Below are positions 3,454 through 11,078 of a stretch of DNA of 64,000 nucleotides, in pieces. Source of the stretch: Burkholderia sp. BCC0322 (GTDB lineage: Bacteria > Pseudomonadota > Gammaproteobacteria > Burkholderiales > Burkholderiaceae); contig NZ_CADFDU010000001.1 of assembly GCF_902833045.1 (NCBI RefSeq), positions 823,927 through 887,926 on the forward strand, read 5' to 3'. Position numbers and translations under genes: made by a program. Positions within the stretch are counted from its first letter, which is position 1, and every line of letters begins with the position of its first letter. Under the pieces are notes generated by a model, which saw only the letters and a list, made by a program, of their open reading frames with translations, ran no database searches and was not told the DNA's origin.

Positions 3454-4281
3454 CTACGCCTCGATATCCGTTTCCGCGAGCCCCTGAACTTCTCTCGGGC
3501 GAAGAATTTTCTCAACGAGCCGAGCCGACATCTGGCGGCTCAATAGTCTCTGCAAGTTCGCAAGCAGTCGATTTCGTGCCCCCACAACCCGATAGCTCAG
3601 ATTGCGATCGAGCGCCCGCAACGCATCCTGCACCACGTTCGCGACCGGCATCGGCACGCCGACGGCAGCCTCCTTTGCACCAACAACGTCGAAAAAGGCC
3701 GTTTGCGTCGCGCCAGGACATAGGGCGACGACCCGGATGCCCCGATGCCGGTTCTCGGCCCAGACGGCTTCCGAAAATGACAGGAGAAAGGCTTTCGTCG
3801 CGCCGTAGACCGCCATATACGGATCGGGCTGGAATGCCGCGGTTGACGCGACGTTGATGACCGCGCCATCGGATCGCGCTTGCATCCCCGGCAGCAGAAG
3901 ATGAGTCAGCTCGACCGCGGCGATGCAGTTCACCAGAACTTCATCGCGCTGGCGCGTCAACGGAATCGTTTCAAAGCGCCCGTAAGCTGCGAAGCCCGCA
4001 TTGTTGATCAGCACATCGACGAACATGCCTGTCGCCTTCAGATGACGATCGATCGTGTTGACGGCGTCGGCCGCGCTCAGGTCGACCGTCAGAAAATTGG
4101 CGTCGCACGCATGGTCGCGTCGCAGTTCCGCGGCCAGATCGCGCAGCTTGTCGTGAGAGCGTGCGACCAGCAGGAGTCTCGCGCCGCGTTCGGCCAGCGC
4201 ATAGGCAAACGCGCGCCCGATACCCGACGATGCACCGGTGACGAGTGCTGTTTTTCCGCCAAAATCGAAAGATTTGCTCAT
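3454..4281 (-). CDS. SDR family NAD(P)-dependent oxidoreductase
   Basis: A 275-residue classical short-chain dehydrogenase/reductase. It has the cofactor motif TGASSGIG near residue 16, the structural NNAG motif near 92, a catalytic Ser in NVASTAAF and the YGATK active-site Tyr-Lys pair. Classical SDRs reduce or oxidise carbonyl/hydroxyl groups with NAD(P)H; the substrate is not predictable. The C-terminal extension after residue 240 is hydrophilic and basic. It is divergent from a MerR regulator, with a palindrome inside its own promoter spacer, so it is the likely target of that regulator. Confidence 0.85.
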   Translation of the reverse strand: MSKSFDFGGKTALVTGASSGIGRAFAYALAERGARLLLVARSHDKLRDLAAELRRDHACDANFLTVDLSAADAVNTIDRHLKATGMFVDVLINNAGFAAYGRFETIPLTRQRDEVLVNCIAAVELTHLLLPGMQARSDGAVINVASTAAFQPDPYMAVYGATKAFLLSFSEAVWAENRHRGIRVVALCPGATQTAFFDVVGAKEAAVGVPMPVANVVQDALRALDRNLSYRVVGARNRLLANLQRLLSRQMSARLVEKILRPREVQGLAETDIEA

Positions 4282-4311
4282 GGCCTGCTGATGGAGTGGA
4301 ACGGGAGTTGC

Positions 4312-4343
4312 ACTCTAAACCGTTGACTATAGTCAACGGTCAA
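4312..4343 (-). promoter_or_regulatory. MerR-type promoter/operator for the SDR gene
   Basis: A perfect 20-bp palindrome (CCGTTGACTATAGTCAACGG, 4320-4339) lies between the divergent SDR and MerR genes. On the minus strand a -35 box TTGACC (4343-4338) and a -10 box TAGAGT (4317-4312) are separated by 20 bp, and most of the palindrome falls in that spacer. An over-long spacer holding a dyad is the hallmark of promoters activated by MerR-family proteins through DNA distortion. Confidence 0.7.
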
Positions 4344-4380
4344 GCGTAAATGACGTCCCACGACATCGATTGGAGGCAGC

Positions 4381-4755
4381 ATGCGCATCGGCGAGCTATG
4401 CAAGCGGGCGGGTGTATCACGCGACACCGTCCGTTACTACGAGCGTATGGGCCTGCTGGACAAAACAACGCAGCCTAACGCGACGAACACTTACAAGCAC
4501 TATTCGGAACTTTCGTTACAGCGGATACGGCTGATCGTCCACGCGAAGGCGTTGGGCTTCACGCTGGCGGAAATTGGCGACGTTGTCCATGTATGGGAAA
4601 GTCCGACGTTCGGCGTCGAGCAAAAGGTCATGTGCCTGCAAGCAAAGCTCGCGGAACTCGACGCAAAGAGTCTCGCGTTGATCACGCTGCGAACAGGGTT
4701 GCTGAATGCGTTGGCCAAAGTTGGCGGAGAGTGTGTCGACGATGAAATTGCGTGA
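4381..4755 (+). CDS. MerR family transcriptional regulator
   Basis: A 124-residue regulator with the N-terminal MerR winged helix-turn-helix: MRIGELCKRAGVSRDTVRYY followed by ERMGLL, and the second helical pair LQRIRLIVHAKALGF.LAEI. The C-terminal half forms the antiparallel dimerisation coil. It has single Cys residues but not the paired Cys pattern of metal-sensing MerR or CueR, so a small organic ligand is more likely. GGAGG sits just upstream of the ATG. Divergent arrangement with the SDR gene and the shared dyad indicate local regulation. Confidence 0.9.
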   Translation: MRIGELCKRAGVSRDTVRYYERMGLLDKTTQPNATNTYKHYSELSLQRIRLIVHAKALGFTLAEIGDVVHVWESPTFGVEQKVMCLQAKLAELDAKSLALITLRTGLLNALAKVGGECVDDEIA

Positions 4756-5280
4756 TGACGCGCGGCCGAGCCAGTGTCATGCTGCCTCGAACAGGAACGT
4801 CGATGGCCGCTTCGATCGCGCGCGCGAGTCCGCAGACGATCAGAGCCGGTCGCCCGTGCGCCAGCGCTCCCACATTAGCGTCTTCTGACCGTCTGTATAG
4901 TCGATCCGCCACCTCTGTTTCATTGCAACACGCCCCGCTGCCATGCAGCCTCAAGTGTGTTGCATCGACGGGTTGAATCCGCAGCAGAGCACGGACACTC
5001 AAATACCGGGTTCATGCGTTCGCGCCGCGCACGGGCTCATTTTCGAAGACAAGACGACAACCAGGCCGATGGCGTGCTTCTCGCACCCCGGCGCCATGTC
5101 GCGATCGCTCTGATTCCCCACCCACTATCTCTCGCACCATGCGATGGCCTCCGGTCGTCGCAAAGCGCCCCACCTGGATCCGCCCGTTCACGTTCCCCGA
5201 CTATTGCATTCCTCGCGCCGCTGATTAGGAAATGAATTTTTATTGGTTCTGCTTGCCCGGCCGCACTCGCATAGTGGTGC
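4756..5280. other. Intergenic region without a recognisable gene
   Basis: About 525 bp between the MerR gene and the promoter region of the rhodanese operon. A minus-strand open frame across 4682-5002 contains a protein-like stretch (ANVGALAHGRPALIVCGLAR), but it overlaps the end of the MerR gene, lacks a good start signal and matches no family I know. It may be a decayed gene fragment. I see no RNA gene or clear repeat. Confidence 0.4.
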
Positions 5281-5292
5281 TGACGGCTATAG
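5281..5292 (+). promoter_or_regulatory. Shared 12-mer upstream of the rhodanese-SAT-XRE operon
   Basis: TGACGGCTATAG occurs here, 75 bp before the rhodanese ATG, and again identically at 7072-7083, 88 bp before the shell-protein ATG. TATAGA/TATAGC at the 3' side could be a -10 box, but no good -35 box lies 16-18 bp upstream in either copy, as expected for an activator-dependent promoter. The matching positions suggest that both transcription units of the nanocompartment locus answer to the same regulator. Confidence 0.45.
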
Positions 5293-5366
5293 ACAGCACG
5301 CAAGCTGCAACGGCCGCATTCCCGGTGTTTTTTGATCATACGAATCAACGAAAACAAGGAAGTGTC

Positions 5367-5837
5367 ATGACGGTTGCATTGGAACAACGAACCGCCGCGC
5401 AGCAGGCGCTCGAAGACGCGCGCGCGGCAGCAGCAGCGGCCGGCACGCCCTATGCGGGCGGCGTCGCACCGGAAGCCGCATGGGCGCTGTTCTCCGCGGG
5501 CGACGCAGTGCTGGTGGACGTGCGCACCGCCGAGGAACGGAAATTCGTCGGCCATGTGCCGGAGTCGCTGCATGTGCCGTGGGCAACGGGCACGAGCCTG
5601 ACGCGCAACCCGCGCTTCGTGCGCGAACTGGAAGCGAAGACCGGCAAGGCGGCCGTCGTGTTGCTGCTATGCCGCAGCGGCAACCGCTCGGCGCAGGCGG
5701 CCGAGGCCGCGACGAAGGGGGGCTTTACGCAGGTGTTCAACGTGCTCGAAGGGTTCGAGGGCGACCTCGACGAACGGCAGCATCGCGGCGGCAGCAATGG
5801 CTGGCGTTTTCGCGGCCTGCCGTGGGCGCAGGACTGA
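5367..5837 (+). CDS. Rhodanese-like sulfurtransferase of the encapsulin locus
   Basis: A 156-residue single-domain rhodanese. The substrate-binding start VLVDVRTAEER and the active-site loop CRSGNR with Cys102 are intact, so it should carry a persulfide. Rhodaneses move sulfane sulfur between donors and acceptors such as thiosulfate, cyanide or protein thiols. It is first in a run followed by a serine acetyltransferase, an XRE regulator, an encapsulin shell and a cysteine desulfurase, a gene set known for family 2A nanocompartments; a role in handling sulfur released from cysteine is inferred. The ATG at 5367 has AAGGAAG 5 nt upstream and is preferred over an upstream start at 5232. Confidence 0.88.
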   Translation: MTVALEQRTAAQQALEDARAAAAAAGTPYAGGVAPEAAWALFSAGDAVLVDVRTAEERKFVGHVPESLHVPWATGTSLTRNPRFVRELEAKTGKAAVVLLLCRSGNRSAQAAEAATKGGFTQVFNVLEGFEGDLDERQHRGGSNGWRFRGLPWAQD

Positions 5838-5865
5838 TTCACGGCCGTTACAGGGAGAAAGCAGC

Positions 5866-6804
5866 ATGGCCGCATTCGACATCGACGACATCGTTCAATC
5901 GCTGCAGACCGTGCGCCGCGCGTGGCGCGAGAAGCAGCGCCGCTCGCTCGAACCGGGCGGGCGCGACCTGCCGGCGCGCGAGGCACTCGCGCAGATCATC
6001 GGCGGGCTGAAGGGCGTGCTGTTCCCGATGCGGCTCGGGCCGCCCGACCTGCGCCAGGAGAGCGAGAATTTTCACGTGGCCCACGCGCTCGATGCGGCGT
6101 TGAATGCGCTGCTCGCACAGGTGAAGCTGGAATTGCGTTACGCGGCGCGGCAGCGCAATGCCGACGTGCTGGCCGATAACGTCGATGACGTCGCGTCGAC
6201 AGCCGTGCAGGCATTTGCCGCGCGCCTGCCCGAGATTCGCCGGCTGCTCGACAGCGACGTGCTGGCCGCATTCCACGGCGATCCGGCGGCCGGCAGCGTC
6301 GACGAGGTGCTGCTGTGCTACCCGGGCATCCTCGCGATGATCCACCACCGGCTCGCACACGAGCTGTACGGGCTCGGCCTGCCGCTGCTCGCACGGATCA
6401 TCGCCGAGCAGGCGCATGCGGAGACGGGCATCGACATTCATCCGGGCGCGCGCATCGGCGCGGGCTTCTTCATCGACCACGGCACGGGCGTCGTGATCGG
6501 CGAGACGGCGATCATCGGCGAGCGCGTGCGCGTGTACCAGGCCGTCACGCTCGGCGCGAAACGCTTTCCGCGCGACGCGGCCGGCCACCTGGAGAAGGGG
6601 CTGGCGCGCCATCCGATCGTCGAGGACGACGTGGTGATCTATGCGGGCGCAACGATCCTCGGCCGCGTGACGATCGGGCGCGGCGCGGTGATCGGCGGCA
6701 ACGTGTGGCTCACGCAGGACGTGCCGGCCGGCGCGAACATCACGCAGGCCGTGCTGCGCAGCGAAGCGAACGCGGCGCCGCGCGCGGCGGCGCGGGTCGC
6801 ATAG
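5866..6804 (+). CDS. epsC: Serine O-acetyltransferase (EpsC/CysE type)
   Basis: A 312-residue enzyme with an alpha-helical N-terminal domain and a C-terminal left-handed beta-helix of hexapeptide repeats, from about residue 185 ('GIDIHPGARIGAGFFIDHG' through 'VIYAGATILGRVTIG.GAVIGGN'). The HPGA, DHGTG and VTLG segments match serine acetyltransferases, which make O-acetyl-L-serine from serine and acetyl-CoA, the committed step of cysteine synthesis. It is about 40 residues longer than E. coli CysE at the N-terminus, as in the EpsC type. It begins 28 bp after the rhodanese behind GGGAGAAAG. It plausibly supplies cysteine, the desulfurase substrate. Confidence 0.9.
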   Translation: MAAFDIDDIVQSLQTVRRAWREKQRRSLEPGGRDLPAREALAQIIGGLKGVLFPMRLGPPDLRQESENFHVAHALDAALNALLAQVKLELRYAARQRNADVLADNVDDVASTAVQAFAARLPEIRRLLDSDVLAAFHGDPAAGSVDEVLLCYPGILAMIHHRLAHELYGLGLPLLARIIAEQAHAETGIDIHPGARIGAGFFIDHGTGVVIGETAIIGERVRVYQAVTLGAKRFPRDAAGHLEKGLARHPIVEDDVVIYAGATILGRVTIGRGAVIGGNVWLTQDVPAGANITQAVLRSEANAAPRAAARVA

Positions 6805-6812
6805 GAGGCCCG

Positions 6813-7034
6813 ATGAGCGACCTCATCCATCACTTCGGCGCCAACGTGCGCAAGCTGCGCGAAGCGCGCACGTGGTCGCAGGAGCAGCTTGCCGAGCATG
6901 CGGGGCTGAACCGCTCGTATGTCGGCGAGATCGAGCGCGGCGAGGCGATCGCGTCGATCGTCACCGCCGACAAGATCGCGCGCGCGTTCGACGTGTCGAT
7001 CTCGACGCTGCTGCCGGGCGTGTACGTCGCCTGA
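6813..7034 (+). CDS. XRE family transcriptional regulator, single HTH domain
   Basis: A 73-residue protein that is essentially one Cro/C1-type helix-turn-helix: FGANVRKLREARTWSQEQLA, then a recognition helix LNRSYVGEIERG. There is no extra sensor domain. It starts 8 bp after the acetyltransferase stop behind AGGAGG, so it is co-transcribed with the rhodanese and acetyltransferase. The encapsulin shell gene follows after a 136-bp gap holding the second copy of the 12-mer found before the rhodanese; this regulator is a candidate to bind both. Its ligand, if any, is unknown. Confidence 0.88.
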   Translation: MSDLIHHFGANVRKLREARTWSQEQLAEHAGLNRSYVGEIERGEAIASIVTADKIARAFDVSISTLLPGVYVA

Positions 7035-7071
7035 GGCCCCCGTTTCGTTTCCCTTTCGGTTGCACGCGACG

Positions 7072-7083
7072 TGACGGCTATAG
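7072..7083 (+). promoter_or_regulatory. Shared 12-mer upstream of the encapsulin shell gene
   Basis: Second exact copy of TGACGGCTATAG, in the only non-coding gap inside the encapsulin locus. It indicates a second promoter or operator driving the shell and cargo genes. The first copy is at 5281-5292. The flanking bases differ between the copies, so the conserved core probably marks a functional site rather than a recent duplication. Confidence 0.45.
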
Positions 7084-7170
7084 CATGTTGAGCCGGCAGG
7101 TGCGTGCTTCCGATAATCGTCGAGCGTCATAAGCAATCCCGTTTTTCATCTAAAGAACCCGGAGCCCCAC

Positions 7171-8103
7171 ATGTCGACCGTTGCAAGCGGCACGGCCGCG
7201 CTGAGCGATCACGCCGCCCGCCAACTAGCGAACGCTACCAAGACCGTCCCCCAGCTTTCCACGATCACGCCGCGCTGGCTGACCCATCTTCTGCAATGGG
7301 TGCCGGTCGAGGCCGGCATCTATCGCCTGAACCAGGTGAAGAACCCGGAAGCCGTGCGCGCCGCGTGCACGCAGCTCGAGGACGAAAGCGTGCTGCCGCA
7401 GACCTTCGTGCCGTACGAGGAACAGCCGCGCGAGTATTTCCTGAACGCGGTGAGCACGGTGCTCGACGTGCATACGCGGATTTCCGATCTTTACAGCAGT
7501 CCTCACGACCAGATCAAGGAGCAGCTGCGCCTGACGATCGAGACGATCAAGGAACTGCAGGAAAGCCAGTTGATCAACAACCCCGACTACGGGCTGCTCG
7601 CAAACGTGACCGACGACCAGCGGATCTTCCCGCTGACGGGCGCGCCGACGCCCGACGATCTCGACGAGCTGCTGACCAAGGTGTGGAAGGAACCCGCGTT
7701 CTTCCTCACGCACCCGCTCGCGATCGCCGCGTTCGGCCGCGAGTGCACGCGGCGCGGCGTGCCGCCGCCGACGGTCAGCCTGTTCGGCTCGCAGTTCCTC
7801 ACGTGGCGCGGCATTCCGCTGATCCCGTCGGACAAGGTGCCGGTCGCGGACGGCAAGACCAAGATCCTGCTGCTGCGCGTCGGCGACAAGCGGCAGGGCG
7901 TCGTCGGCCTGTATCAGCCGGGCGTCGCGGGCGAGCAGGGCCCGGGCCTGTCGGTGCGCTTCATGGGGATCAACAACCAGGCGATCGCGTCGTACCTGAT
8001 CTCGCTGTATTGCTCGCTCGCGGTCCATTCGCCGGATGCGCTGGCTGTCCTCGATGATGTCGAAATCGCCAAGTTCCATGACTATCCCGACACCTACCGT
8101 TAA
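7171..8103 (+). CDS. srpI: Family 2A encapsulin nanocompartment shell protein (SrpI-like)
   Basis: A 310-residue HK97-fold shell protein of the family 2A encapsulin type, the size expected for SrpI homologues. Recognisable parts are the extended N-terminal arm ending TITPRWLTHLLQWVPVEAG, the E-loop/P-domain region with DLYSSPHDQIKEQLRLTIET, and the A-domain segment SLFGSQFLTWRGIPLIPSDK and onward. The protein is expected to self-assemble into an icosahedral protein cage. The next gene is the cognate cysteine desulfurase cargo, overlapping by 26 bp. The two genes share a promoter region separate from the upstream rhodanese operon. CGGAG lies about 7 nt before the ATG. No phage packaging or tail genes are nearby, which argues against a prophage capsid. 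Confidence 0.93.
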   Translation: MSTVASGTAALSDHAARQLANATKTVPQLSTITPRWLTHLLQWVPVEAGIYRLNQVKNPEAVRAACTQLEDESVLPQTFVPYEEQPREYFLNAVSTVLDVHTRISDLYSSPHDQIKEQLRLTIETIKELQESQLINNPDYGLLANVTDDQRIFPLTGAPTPDDLDELLTKVWKEPAFFLTHPLAIAAFGRECTRRGVPPPTVSLFGSQFLTWRGIPLIPSDKVPVADGKTKILLLRVGDKRQGVVGLYQPGVAGEQGPGLSVRFMGINNQAIASYLISLYCSLAVHSPDALAVLDDVEIAKFHDYPDTYR

Positions 8104-10078
8104 TCCCGGCCTGGCCGGCGGCGACGCGCACGCGCTGCCGCACGCGCCGCTGCCGGCTGGCTTGCCTGACCCGGCTACGCTTGCGCGGCTCGCATCCGAG
8201 TTCTTTGCGACACCGCCCGGGCAGGCCACCGCGCCCGGGCTGTCGGCCGGCAGCGGTGCGGTTGGCGGCGTACCGTCGGCATTGCCGGCCGCTGCACCGA
8301 TCCTCGCGTCGGTGAGCAACCCGGTGCCGGGCGGCTCGCCGCTCGCAGGGCCGGGCGGCGCGGGCACCGGCGTGCCCGGTCTCGCGCTCCCGCAAGGGAA
8401 AGTGCCCGGCGCGAACCTCGCGCCGTCCGCACCGACGCACGTGCTGTCGCTCGGCAACCGCGCACCCGCGCTCGCGCCGCATGCGGCCGCGCAGAACGGG
8501 TTGCCCGACAACTTCGTGTCGATCGCGCCGGCGCTGGAGCCGCGCGTCGGCGGCGCGGCGCTCGGCGTGCCGCAAGCGAATGCGCCGGCGCAGGAAGGCG
8601 CGGCGAAAGCATCGCCGTACTACTTCACCGATGGTTCGCTGCAGGGCTGGCAGGCGACGCCGCAGGACATCGTCGTGCCGTCGAACGGCCTCGCATCGCC
8701 GGAAGCGTTCGGGTTGCCCGGCGACGACGTGCTGCGCGAGCTGCTCGCGGTGCATCGCGACGTGCCGGTATCGCGTGCGTCGGGCGCCGACGTGCCGCGC
8801 TACTTCATCGACGATGCGCATGCACTCGAGCCGCAGGGGCAGTGGCATCAGGGCGCGCACCCGCCGTTCGACGTGAACGCGATCCGCCGCGATTTCCCGA
8901 TCCTGCAGGAGCGCGTCAACGGCAAGCCGCTCGTGTGGTTCGACAATGCGGCGACGACGCACAAGCCGCAGGCCGTGATCGACCGGCTCGCGTATTTCTA
9001 TGCGCACGAGAACTCGAACATCCACCGTGCCGCCCATGCGCTGGCCGGTCGCGCGACGGATGCCTACGAGCATGCGCGGGACACCGTGCGGCGTTTCATC
9101 GGCGCGGCGTCGCCGGATGAGATCGTGTTCGTGCGCGGCACGACCGAGGCGATCAACCTGATCGCGAAGACGTGGGGCGTGCAGCACGTCGGCGAAGGCG
9201 ACGAGATCATCGTGTCGCATCTCGAACATCACGCGAACATCGTGCCGTGGCAGCAGCTTGCTGCGCAGAAGGGGGCGAAGCTGCGCGTGATTCCGGTCGA
9301 CGATTCGGGGCAGGTGCTGCTCGACGAATACCGGAAGCTGCTCAACGACCGCACCAGGATCGTGTCCGTCACGCAGGTGTCGAACGCGCTCGGCACGGTC
9401 GTGCCGGTGAAGGAAATCGTCGAGCTCGCGCATCGTGCCGGCGCGAAGGCGCTCGTCGACGGCGCGCAGTCGATCTCGCACATGCGCGTGGACGTGCAGG
9501 CGCTCGATGCGGATTTCTTCGTGTTCTCCGGGCACAAGATCTACGGGCCGACCGGGATCGGCGTCGTGTACGGCAAGCGCGCGATCCTCGACGACATGCC
9601 GCCGTGGCAGGGTGGTGGCAACATGATCGCGGACGTGACGTTCGAACGTACGGTGTTCCAGCCGCCGCCGAACCGGTTCGAGGCCGGCACCGGCAACATC
9701 GCGGATGCGGTGGGGCTGGGCGCCGCGCTCGACTATGTGAGCCGGGTCGGCATCGAGAACATCGCGCGCTATGAGCACGACCTGCTTGCGTATGCAACGA
9801 GCGTGCTCGCGCCGGTGCCGGGCGTGCGGCTCGTCGGCACCGCGCGCGACAAGGCGAGCGTGCTGTCGTTCGTGCTGAAGGGTTATGAAACCGAGGAAGT
9901 CGGGCAGGCGCTGAACGAAGAGGGCATCGCGGTGCGCTCGGGGCATCACTGCGCGCAGCCGATCCTGCGGCGTTTCGGCCTGGAGGCAACCGTGCGGCCG
10001 TCGCTCGCGTTCTACAACACGTGCGACGAGGTCGATGCGCTGGTGAGCGTCGTGCGGCGTCTCGCGACGCGGCGCTGA
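8078..10078 (+). CDS. Family 2A encapsulin cargo: SufS-type cysteine desulfurase with long N-terminal targeting region
   Basis: A 666-residue two-part protein. Residues 1 to about 250 are low-complexity, rich in Ala, Pro and Gly and probably disordered, with short conserved-looking islands: LARLASEFF near 33, LGNRAPALAPHAA near 124 and SPYYFTDGSLQGW near 180. The rest is a SufS-like PLP-dependent cysteine desulfurase with the PLP Schiff-base lysine K487 (SGHKIYGPTG) and persulfide-forming C625 (RSGHHCAQP). It converts cysteine to alanine plus enzyme persulfide. The N-terminal region in this family docks the enzyme inside the shell. The ATG at 8078 (MTIPTPTVNPG) overlaps the shell gene by 26 bp; ATGs at 8036 and 8054 are possible but less likely. 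Confidence 0.92.
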   Translation: MTIPTPTVNPGLAGGDAHALPHAPLPAGLPDPATLARLASEFFATPPGQATAPGLSAGSGAVGGVPSALPAAAPILASVSNPVPGGSPLAGPGGAGTGVPGLALPQGKVPGANLAPSAPTHVLSLGNRAPALAPHAAAQNGLPDNFVSIAPALEPRVGGAALGVPQANAPAQEGAAKASPYYFTDGSLQGWQATPQDIVVPSNGLASPEAFGLPGDDVLRELLAVHRDVPVSRASGADVPRYFIDDAHALEPQGQWHQGAHPPFDVNAIRRDFPILQERVNGKPLVWFDNAATTHKPQAVIDRLAYFYAHENSNIHRAAHALAGRATDAYEHARDTVRRFIGAASPDEIVFVRGTTEAINLIAKTWGVQHVGEGDEIIVSHLEHHANIVPWQQLAAQKGAKLRVIPVDDSGQVLLDEYRKLLNDRTRIVSVTQVSNALGTVVPVKEIVELAHRAGAKALVDGAQSISHMRVDVQALDADFFVFSGHKIYGPTGIGVVYGKRAILDDMPPWQGGGNMIADVTFERTVFQPPPNRFEAGTGNIADAVGLGAALDYVSRVGIENIARYEHDLLAYATSVLAPVPGVRLVGTARDKASVLSFVLKGYETEEVGQALNEEGIAVRSGHHCAQPILRRFGLEATVRPSLAFYNTCDEVDALVSVVRRLATRR

Positions 10079-10085
10079 CGCCATT

Positions 10086-10119
10086 CGCTTGCGGCGGCCC
10101 ATGCGGGTCGCCGCAAGCG
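10086..10119. terminator. Hairpin between convergent desulfurase and ArgB-like genes
   Basis: A perfect 11-bp stem (CGCTTGCGGCG / CGCCGCAAGCG) closes a 12-nt loop, 8 bp after the desulfurase stop and 18 bp before the end of the opposing gene. There is no clear U-tract on either strand, so it may be a Rho-assisted or bidirectional terminator, or a transcript-stabilising structure. Confidence 0.5.
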
Positions 10120-10136
10120 TTCGATCGCTATCCCCT

Positions 10137-11030
10137 TCAGAACCGCACGACCTGCTTCTGCTCGACGCTGAAGCCGTCGCGCAGCACGCTCGCCGAATCC
10201 GCGAAGTAGCGGCGGGTTTCCGACAGCAGGTCGGTGTTGCCGCGGCGGCAGAACACGACCCCCGAGCCTTCTTCGGTGAGCAGTTCGTCGATCAGCGATT
10301 CGGGTTGCCCGATATCGGCGAGATGGACGTTCTGCACGCCGTGTGCGAGTGCATCGAGCGCTTCGCGCACGCAGGACGCGGCAGTAGCGGCCGGGTGCTC
10401 GGCAAGCCAGTGCTCGAGTTCCGTGATGCCGTAAAGCCCGGCGAGCTCGCCGAGTTCGCGCAGCAGCGTGCTTTCAACCATCATCACCAGCGTGACGGCG
10501 CCCGTGCGCTGCGCGAAGAGGCTGCCGAGCCGTTCGGCGCGCAGCAGGCGATCGTGGCCTGCGTCGTCCGGGGCGACCGGCATCACGACGGGCACCAGAC
10601 CGTTCTCGAGAAACGCGTTCAGCGCGGTGCCGTCGAAACGTGCGACCGTGCTCGTGCCGGTGCGGTCGGCATCCACGCTCGCCACCAGCAGGCCGCCATC
10701 GTGGCCGTCGATGCCGATCGCCTTGGCGCCGTGACTGCCGATCAGGCGCACCAGCTCATGATTGACGCCTGCCATCGCCGCGTGAACGGCGTGGATCGGT
10801 TGCGTACCGGACGCGGCGGGCACACTCTGGACGACGATCGGACGAACGCCGGTGAGCGCGAGTAGCGCGACATCCTGCGCGAACGCCTGACGGGCGCGCG
10901 CATCGCTCGCGGCGCCGCCCTCGACGATGACGACGGTCTGCCCGTGCAGGGCCTGCATGAACGGCAGCGAGCGGGCCAGGCCGGCCACGCGACGCGACGT
11001 AGGGGTGGGGCTTTCAGGGTCTGGGAACAT
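10137..11030 (-). CDS. Acetylglutamate-kinase-fold protein with degenerate catalytic motifs
   Basis: A 297-residue protein that aligns along its length with amino acid kinases of the ArgB type: 'FAQDVALLALTGVRPIVV', a nucleotide-domain 'GIDGHDGGLL', 'NGLVPVV.PVAPD'. The key residues are not there. The first glycine motif reads VVIVEGG where ArgB has a catalytic Lys two residues before the Gly pair (Val36 here). HGGGP is replaced by QSVPAASG, and the GGM..K loop near the C-terminus by AATAASC. Phosphoryl transfer is therefore doubtful; a regulatory or binding role is more likely. It follows the PtsN-like gene on the same strand. A GTG at 11069 is an alternative start. Confidence 0.75.
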   Translation of the reverse strand: MFPDPESPTPTSRRVAGLARSLPFMQALHGQTVVIVEGGAASDARARQAFAQDVALLALTGVRPIVVQSVPAASGTQPIHAVHAAMAGVNHELVRLIGSHGAKAIGIDGHDGGLLVASVDADRTGTSTVARFDGTALNAFLENGLVPVVMPVAPDDAGHDRLLRAERLGSLFAQRTGAVTLVMMVESTLLRELGELAGLYGITELEHWLAEHPAATAASCVREALDALAHGVQNVHLADIGQPESLIDELLTEEGSGVVFCRRGNTDLLSETRRYFADSASVLRDGFSVEQKQVVRF

Positions 11031-11078
11031 GGGAATCCGAATGGATGAAGGGAATGCCTGTCGCCGCACGGTGCGGCA

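Follow-up and report, generated by a model that had tools for sequence, protein, structure and literature searches.

A small XRE gene and two matching promoter boxes at a family 2A encapsulin locus of Burkholderia

A 64,000-nucleotide stretch of the Burkholderia sp. BCC0322 genome (hereafter the window) contains five contiguous genes on the + strand (5367-10078), which encode a rhodanese, an EpsC-type serine acetyltransferase, a one-domain XRE protein, a family 2A encapsulin shell and a cysteine desulfurase, its cargo. The span considered here, 5281-10119, begins with a box in front of the rhodanese gene and closes with a hairpin 3' of the cargo gene. The genes would form two units, rhodanese-acetyltransferase-xre and shell-cargo, and a second box of the same kind lies at the shell promoter. 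We propose, with a probability of about 80%, that the XRE protein controls both units through both boxes, its binding and the direction of control being predicted from sequence. The cage core and its partners are known; the regulator-operator circuit is new, as far as the literature was searched. The initial annotation had pointed to the XRE regulator and two promoters as the part worth study. The shared box, which it had not reported, ties both promoters together and bears out this choice. The elements concerned are:

5281..5298, + strand: rhodanese-side box TGACGGCTATAGACAGCA, putative XRE operator covering about +1 to +18 (79/88 upstream regions; genome-wide scan)
7072..7089, + strand: shell-side box TGACGGCTATAGCATGTT, putative XRE operator adjoining the -35 element (88/88 xre loci versus 1/18; box-first search)
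7088..7117, + strand: shell promoter TTGAGC-18-GATAAT (sigma70-like scan)
5270..5275, + strand: probable -10-like CATAGT of the rhodanese-acetyltransferase-xre unit (position relative to the box)

Association of the box with xre

An identical 12-mer, TGACGGCTATAG, is found at 5281 and at 7072, and nowhere else within the 64-kb window. For the comparison between loci 109 sequences were taken, from which two duplicates and L181, which has no shell, were dropped. The shell-side box was scored as [TG]ATAG[CT][ACT][TG]GTTGA at most 260 bases from the shell start, and xre within 3.5 kb. The box was present in 88/88 shell loci with a nearby xre, versus 1/18 without (Fisher test, 9e-19, relatedness not corrected), and the pattern was absent from the surrounding sequence (2.52 Mb, both strands counted). 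The box touches the TTGANN of the -35 element in each of the 88 loci scored. On the rhodanese side, a box scoring above a 99% shuffle control was recovered in 79 of the 88 upstream regions, with a weight matrix trained on the same sites as it scored. The best of these are nearly perfect palindromes (GCCGTCTATAGACGGC in L094 and L096).

The only box-bearing locus without xre, L097 of Caballeronia glebae, has no xre, rhodanese or acetyltransferase gene within 6-kb flanks. The single xre match of that genome (E 1e-10) lies on another contig (L181), where the 12 kb read contain a rhodanese-acetyltransferase-xre unit with its rhodanese-side box but no shell. Retention of the box at this detached shell promoter agrees with regulation in trans. 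In L125 the box was lost along with xre, and copies L101 and L103 have neither, xre-bearing copies being present elsewhere in their genomes (L084, L182). Where 0.6-1.5 kb separate xre from the shell (L158-L160), the box stays with the shell promoter.

Whole genomes were then considered. The pattern TGACGGCTATAGNMNG was run on 61 genomes, 37 of them from the genus, of which 30 have a shell. It gave 52 matches in 28 genomes (two in 24, one in four), all at the locus, versus four for its reversed control. In a box-first search, the 16-base GKCTATAGCMTGTTGA matched 10 times in 399 genomes of the order and its reversed control not once. Each of the 10 matches directly preceded a family 2A shell gene, with xre behind it; six had been seen earlier and four were new, one of them with a shell 74% identical to that of the window. 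These numbers count loci with the exact box. Loci from several families of the order have the box between flanks that differ. The predicted regulator-operator circuit appears both conserved and specific.

The box can even lie inside the coding sequence. In 17 of the 77 xre-bearing loci examined (the window and 76 named loci), the shell-side box falls within the last xre codons, which read Ala-Ile-Ala-Cys-stop (with Ser for the first Ala in one locus and Gly for Cys in two), and the TGA stop is inside the -35 TTGA. The Ile codon is ATA in 17/17 loci, versus 7/918 Ile codons in matched stretches of other genes, a background drawn from 15 of the loci (L114 and L115 left out). The xre genes of Burkholderiaceae end earlier and leave the box intergenic, with CTATAG mostly 91-95 bases before the shell. 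These positions and the codon choice point to a box kept as DNA, not as peptide. A role of the Ala-Ile-Ala-Cys end as a thiol sensor or loading tag was also considered, and rejected because the same DNA lies outside the gene in other lineages and because of the rare ATA codon.

Several points weigh against control of both units by XRE. The shell-side pattern was drawn up with almost all loci already in view. The loci, being related, do not count as independent: about four changes in xre presence suffice on the tree of 106 shells (one gain and three losses, for example). Because both the box and the recognition helix are so highly conserved, covariation does not link them. Two of the 30 shell-bearing genomes, G015 and G035, have no exact TGACGGCTATAGNMNG match; the G015 locus (L158) carries the variant TGATGGCTATAG at both box positions. 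The rhodanese-side box was unrecovered in 9/88 loci, one of which (L153) has none on reading, and the shell-side box lacks a clear right arm, because those bases double as the -35 element. Finally, a loose, family-wide box pattern matched the locus in 10/13 shell-bearing genomes and elsewhere did no better than its reversed control; it was therefore replaced by the stricter 16-mer.

Proposed mode of action and alternative explanations

TTGAGC-18-GATAAT was the only sigma70-like site in 5000-10250, where shuffled sequences average 0.6. Downstream of TTGANN, at a spacing of 17-18 bases, 62/88 loci have ATAAT and 16 a weak xACACT, while 10 have neither. If the start is assumed 7 bases past the -10 element, the centre of the shell-side box is near -43. 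Of the two promoters initially claimed, the one upstream of the rhodanese gene was missed by the same scan and has no consensus -35; it is inferred from conservation, and both start sites are likewise deduced. CATAGT or a close variant lies 5-7 bases 5' of the box in 58/88 loci, which places the box at about +1 to +18. It had no match in the other 30/88, many of them from Comamonadaceae and Oxalobacteraceae. Two further conserved blocks flank these promoters:

5228..5249, + strand: A+T-rich block GGAAATGAATTTTTATTGGTTC 5' of the rhodanese promoter, probable activator site (conservation)
7129..7147, + strand: leader block ATAAGCAATCCCGTTTTTC before the shell (conservation)

The first is conserved in Burkholderia, with variants in Paraburkholderia and relatives, and GGAAATGAATTTTTATTGGTTC gave one match per genome at up to three mismatches in 4/4 genomes. 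A possible CysB/SsuR site upstream of the rhodanese gene was suggested only by the weak likeness of this block to two sbp promoters. The leader block occurs in 48/88 xre-bearing loci (loose pattern) and also in the xre-less copies L101 and L103, so that it seems independent of XRE. As to a riboswitch in the leaders, 5150-10250 gave no Rfam match at E values up to 1.

XRE, which consists of a DNA-binding domain only, would bind both promoters at the CTATAG-centred box. It should act as a brake on its own unit, where the box covers about +1 to +18. At the shell promoter it may recruit or block RNA polymerase. Activators of the XRE-type fold, lambda CI for instance, act at the edge of the -35 element, and recruitment is slightly favoured because of the -43 centre and of the weak -10 elements of some lineages. 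That XRE controls both units and in addition activates the shell unit is, in our view, an even bet. XRE lacks a ligand domain, so its own abundance would serve as the signal, as for the controller (C) proteins of restriction-modification systems. The 5228-5249 block may let sulfur status act on the rhodanese promoter.

The nearest solved structures to the XRE model (predicted local distance difference test, pLDDT, 91.8) are indeed C proteins, C.BclI (2b5a) and C.AhdI (1y7y), with 40-45% identity over 62 columns. C proteins share with XRE a small size, a single helix-turn-helix domain and a gene placed within the unit it would control, and with the proposed circuit the presence of sites at two promoters. 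They differ by their restriction-modification neighbours, whereas xre lies among encapsulin and sulfur genes and no restriction or methylase gene was found among the genes scanned at the locus. The genes under control differ too, being here those of the cage and its sulfur partners. Because of these neighbours, XRE is considered to be like a C protein in action and is not classed as one. C proteins can repress or activate, and their C-box has an AGTC/GACT core (PMC5282649), whereas the boxes found here are centred on CTATAG. A tentative scenario, which falls a little short of even odds, is that a control circuit of the restriction-modification type was co-opted to set when a protein organelle is built. 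XRE, produced with the sulfur enzymes, would brake its own unit and, at a threshold, switch on shell and cargo; operator, -35 element and, in some lineages, the last codons and stop of xre would share the same bases. Autoregulation is suggested here by the box position and the co-occurrence.

A close rival to activation is repression of both units, which we hold to be quite possible though not the favoured outcome. XRE would then sit on the start of its own unit and block the -35 element of the shell promoter, and the cage would be made only when XRE falls or is inactivated. The box centre, placed where activators also act, and the -10 elements that are weak in 16/88 loci and unrecognised in 10 argue against it. 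The contact between box and TTGANN in every locus scored is in its favour, and so is the core promoter of the window, which looks usable unaided. C.Kpn2I provides a precedent: it inhibits a promoter, likely by occluding the -35, and stalls polymerase from a site inside its own gene (PMC6237814).

It is improbable that another regulator binds the boxes and that xre is a passenger gene. Binding by XRE is only predicted, and the conserved 5228-5249 and 7129-7147 blocks make it probable that other factors act too; however, the box tracks xre through its losses in L125, L101 and L103, and matches confined to the locus in the genus scan do not fit a global regulator. Still less probable is that the boxes are core promoter or inherited sequence without any regulator: the shell-side box does merge with the -35 element and close relatives share much upstream sequence, but the same 12-mer occupies different positions at two promoters, is kept down to a rare codon inside xre, and recurs across families with differing flanks.

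The cage genes and their neighbours

The genes under the proposed control by XRE, and the hairpin that follows them, are:

5367..5837, + strand: rhodanese, 156 aa (PF00581, E 2e-14; Cys102 in CRSGNR)
5866..6804, + strand: serine O-acetyltransferase, EpsC type, 312 aa (NF041874, 158.5 bits, cut-off 150)
6813..7034, + strand: XRE (HTH_3), one domain, 73 aa (PF01381, E 1.7e-16)
7171..8103, + strand: family 2A encapsulin shell, 310 aa (NF041162, 524 bits, cut-off 380; PF19307)
8078..10078, + strand: cysteine desulfurase cargo, 666 aa (NF041166, 960 bits, cut-off 800; SufS family TIGR01979)
10086..10119, + strand: hairpin 3' of the cargo gene, possible terminator (fold of 10076-10135, -34.6 kcal/mol)

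The initial annotation announced a complete family 2A encapsulin locus, and this description holds: the five genes are contiguous on one strand, and both shell and cargo score above the NCBIfam cut-offs for family 2A. The hairpin lacks a T run, and the terminator scan did not report it. Pfam gives PF19307 only for the 310 aa of the shell, which has no cNMP-binding domain. By sequence search the closest solved shells are 8t6r (E 6e-169) and SrpI (6x8m, E 1.1e-145, residues 9-305). It is on these close relatives with solved structures that the predicted HK97 fold rests; the AlphaFold2 model (mean pLDDT 33) came from a 26-row alignment, which is too shallow.

Desulfurase Lys487 and Cys625 and rhodanese Cys102, which we take to be the catalytic residues, are in the expected places. 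SGHK and RxGHHCAQP are kept in 96/100 cargo matches, and the rhodanese loop reads CRSGNR or CRSGKR in 94/95 matches. The cargo translation contains LARLASEFFA and KASPYYFTDG, matching the published loading motifs LARLANEFFS and AASPYYFLDG (PMC8049743). The shell would form a cage, and the desulfurase would be loaded by its N-terminal region. There it would strip sulfur from cysteine, to be stored or passed on, plausibly to the rhodanese; cage chemistry has been published for relatives. The proposed circuit was also said to make cysteine. The acetyltransferase is present (168.8 bits against TIGR01172, cysE, under the cut-off of 210.65), but this wording is too strong, since its product is only O-acetylserine and no cysteine synthase was found among the genes scanned in or beside the locus. 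The cargo gene starts 26 bases within the shell gene end (8078-8103), which suggests translational coupling; the same offset is the commonest among relatives (53/97 listed, cargo starts picked by script).

Gene order was compared across the 80 best of 588 relatives, all of them named Burkholderiales loci, with flanks of up to 6 kb. All five genes were found in 72 of them, and the two units travel together. Individually, xre was present in 76, rhodanese in 77, acetyltransferase in 76 and cargo in 77, the three cargo misses being contig ends. The co-occurrence of cargo and shell in related genomes, on which the encapsulin assignment had been made to depend beforehand, is therefore observed. Among 101 relatives searched, 61 belong to the same genus; 49 of these have a shell, the identical 49 have xre, and the other 12 have neither. 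The cage itself is ordinary for the genus. Five more shell-bearing genomes of the order, also among the 101, gave no xre match at E 1e-12, and no xre was found near the shell of the distant family 2A loci L132-L136, L138, L141-L145 and L150-L152 (tblastn, E 1e-5). Among named loci of full length, the closest is from Burkholderia lata R-18110, with 95.7% identity over 4842 bases. The window fits the B. cepacia complex.

Some genomes have two copies. Paraburkholderia xenovorans LB400 has two with xre (L083 and L091), and P. polaris has one with xre (L084) and one without xre and box (L101). In L160, xre and the shell are about 1.46 kb apart, and the opposite strand has an open frame of 460 codons there, membrane-protein-like by eye. 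Beside the locus in the window (3454-4755) is a divergent pair, a short-chain dehydrogenase/reductase (SDR) oxidoreductase on the - strand and a MerR-type regulator on the + strand; the latter is not a conserved partner, as it had a match in only one of the 80 named loci (L063). On the other side, at 10137-11069 on the - strand, is an amino-acid-kinase-like protein that resembles acetylglutamate kinase and scores under the NCBIfam cut-offs.

Known systems and meaning of the proposed circuit

A close known counterpart of the pair is SrpI with its desulfurase in Synechococcus elongatus (PMC8049743; 6x8m, 6x8t). It shares with the present locus the shell family, a SufS-type cargo with an extended N-terminal region and both loading motifs, but not the attached rhodanese, acetyltransferase and one-domain XRE genes, nor the two boxes. 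SrpI is induced by sulfur starvation, cargo loading was shown, and knockouts in Synechococcus had no growth defect (PMC8049743). The family 2A desulfurase operons of Proteobacteria share shell, desulfurase, acetyltransferase and rhodanese with this locus (PMC8346489). The same paper finds acetyltransferase and rhodanese enriched as partners of family 2A desulfurase cages, names desulfurase encapsulins for Burkholderia cepacia and B. pseudomallei, and already contains the idea of a rhodanese acceptor, so that the pair was rightly said to be known from other bacteria. Unlike what is described here, its main text does not contain 'XRE', and the available passages describe no operator.

No description of the XRE gene or of the boxes was found in a literature search that left most subscription papers and supplements outside. 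The terms encapsulin, operon, helix-turn-helix and cysteine desulfurase never occurred together in one paper of the collection searched, nor did SrpI, encapsulin and XRE in any of the papers listed. A later study reportedly deals with sulfur storage in an Acinetobacter cage; it was not located in the search. No Burkholderia transcript data for the locus were found, and the available text of one transcriptome (PMC7970998) does not name it.

A dedicated regulator with two defined sites would offer a handle on the function of family 2A desulfurase cages. The circuit would tie rhodanese and acetyltransferase to the cage by regulation, beyond mere neighbourhood. It would also define the member genes, predict the timing of their expression, and make cage levels adjustable in either direction through deletion of one small gene.

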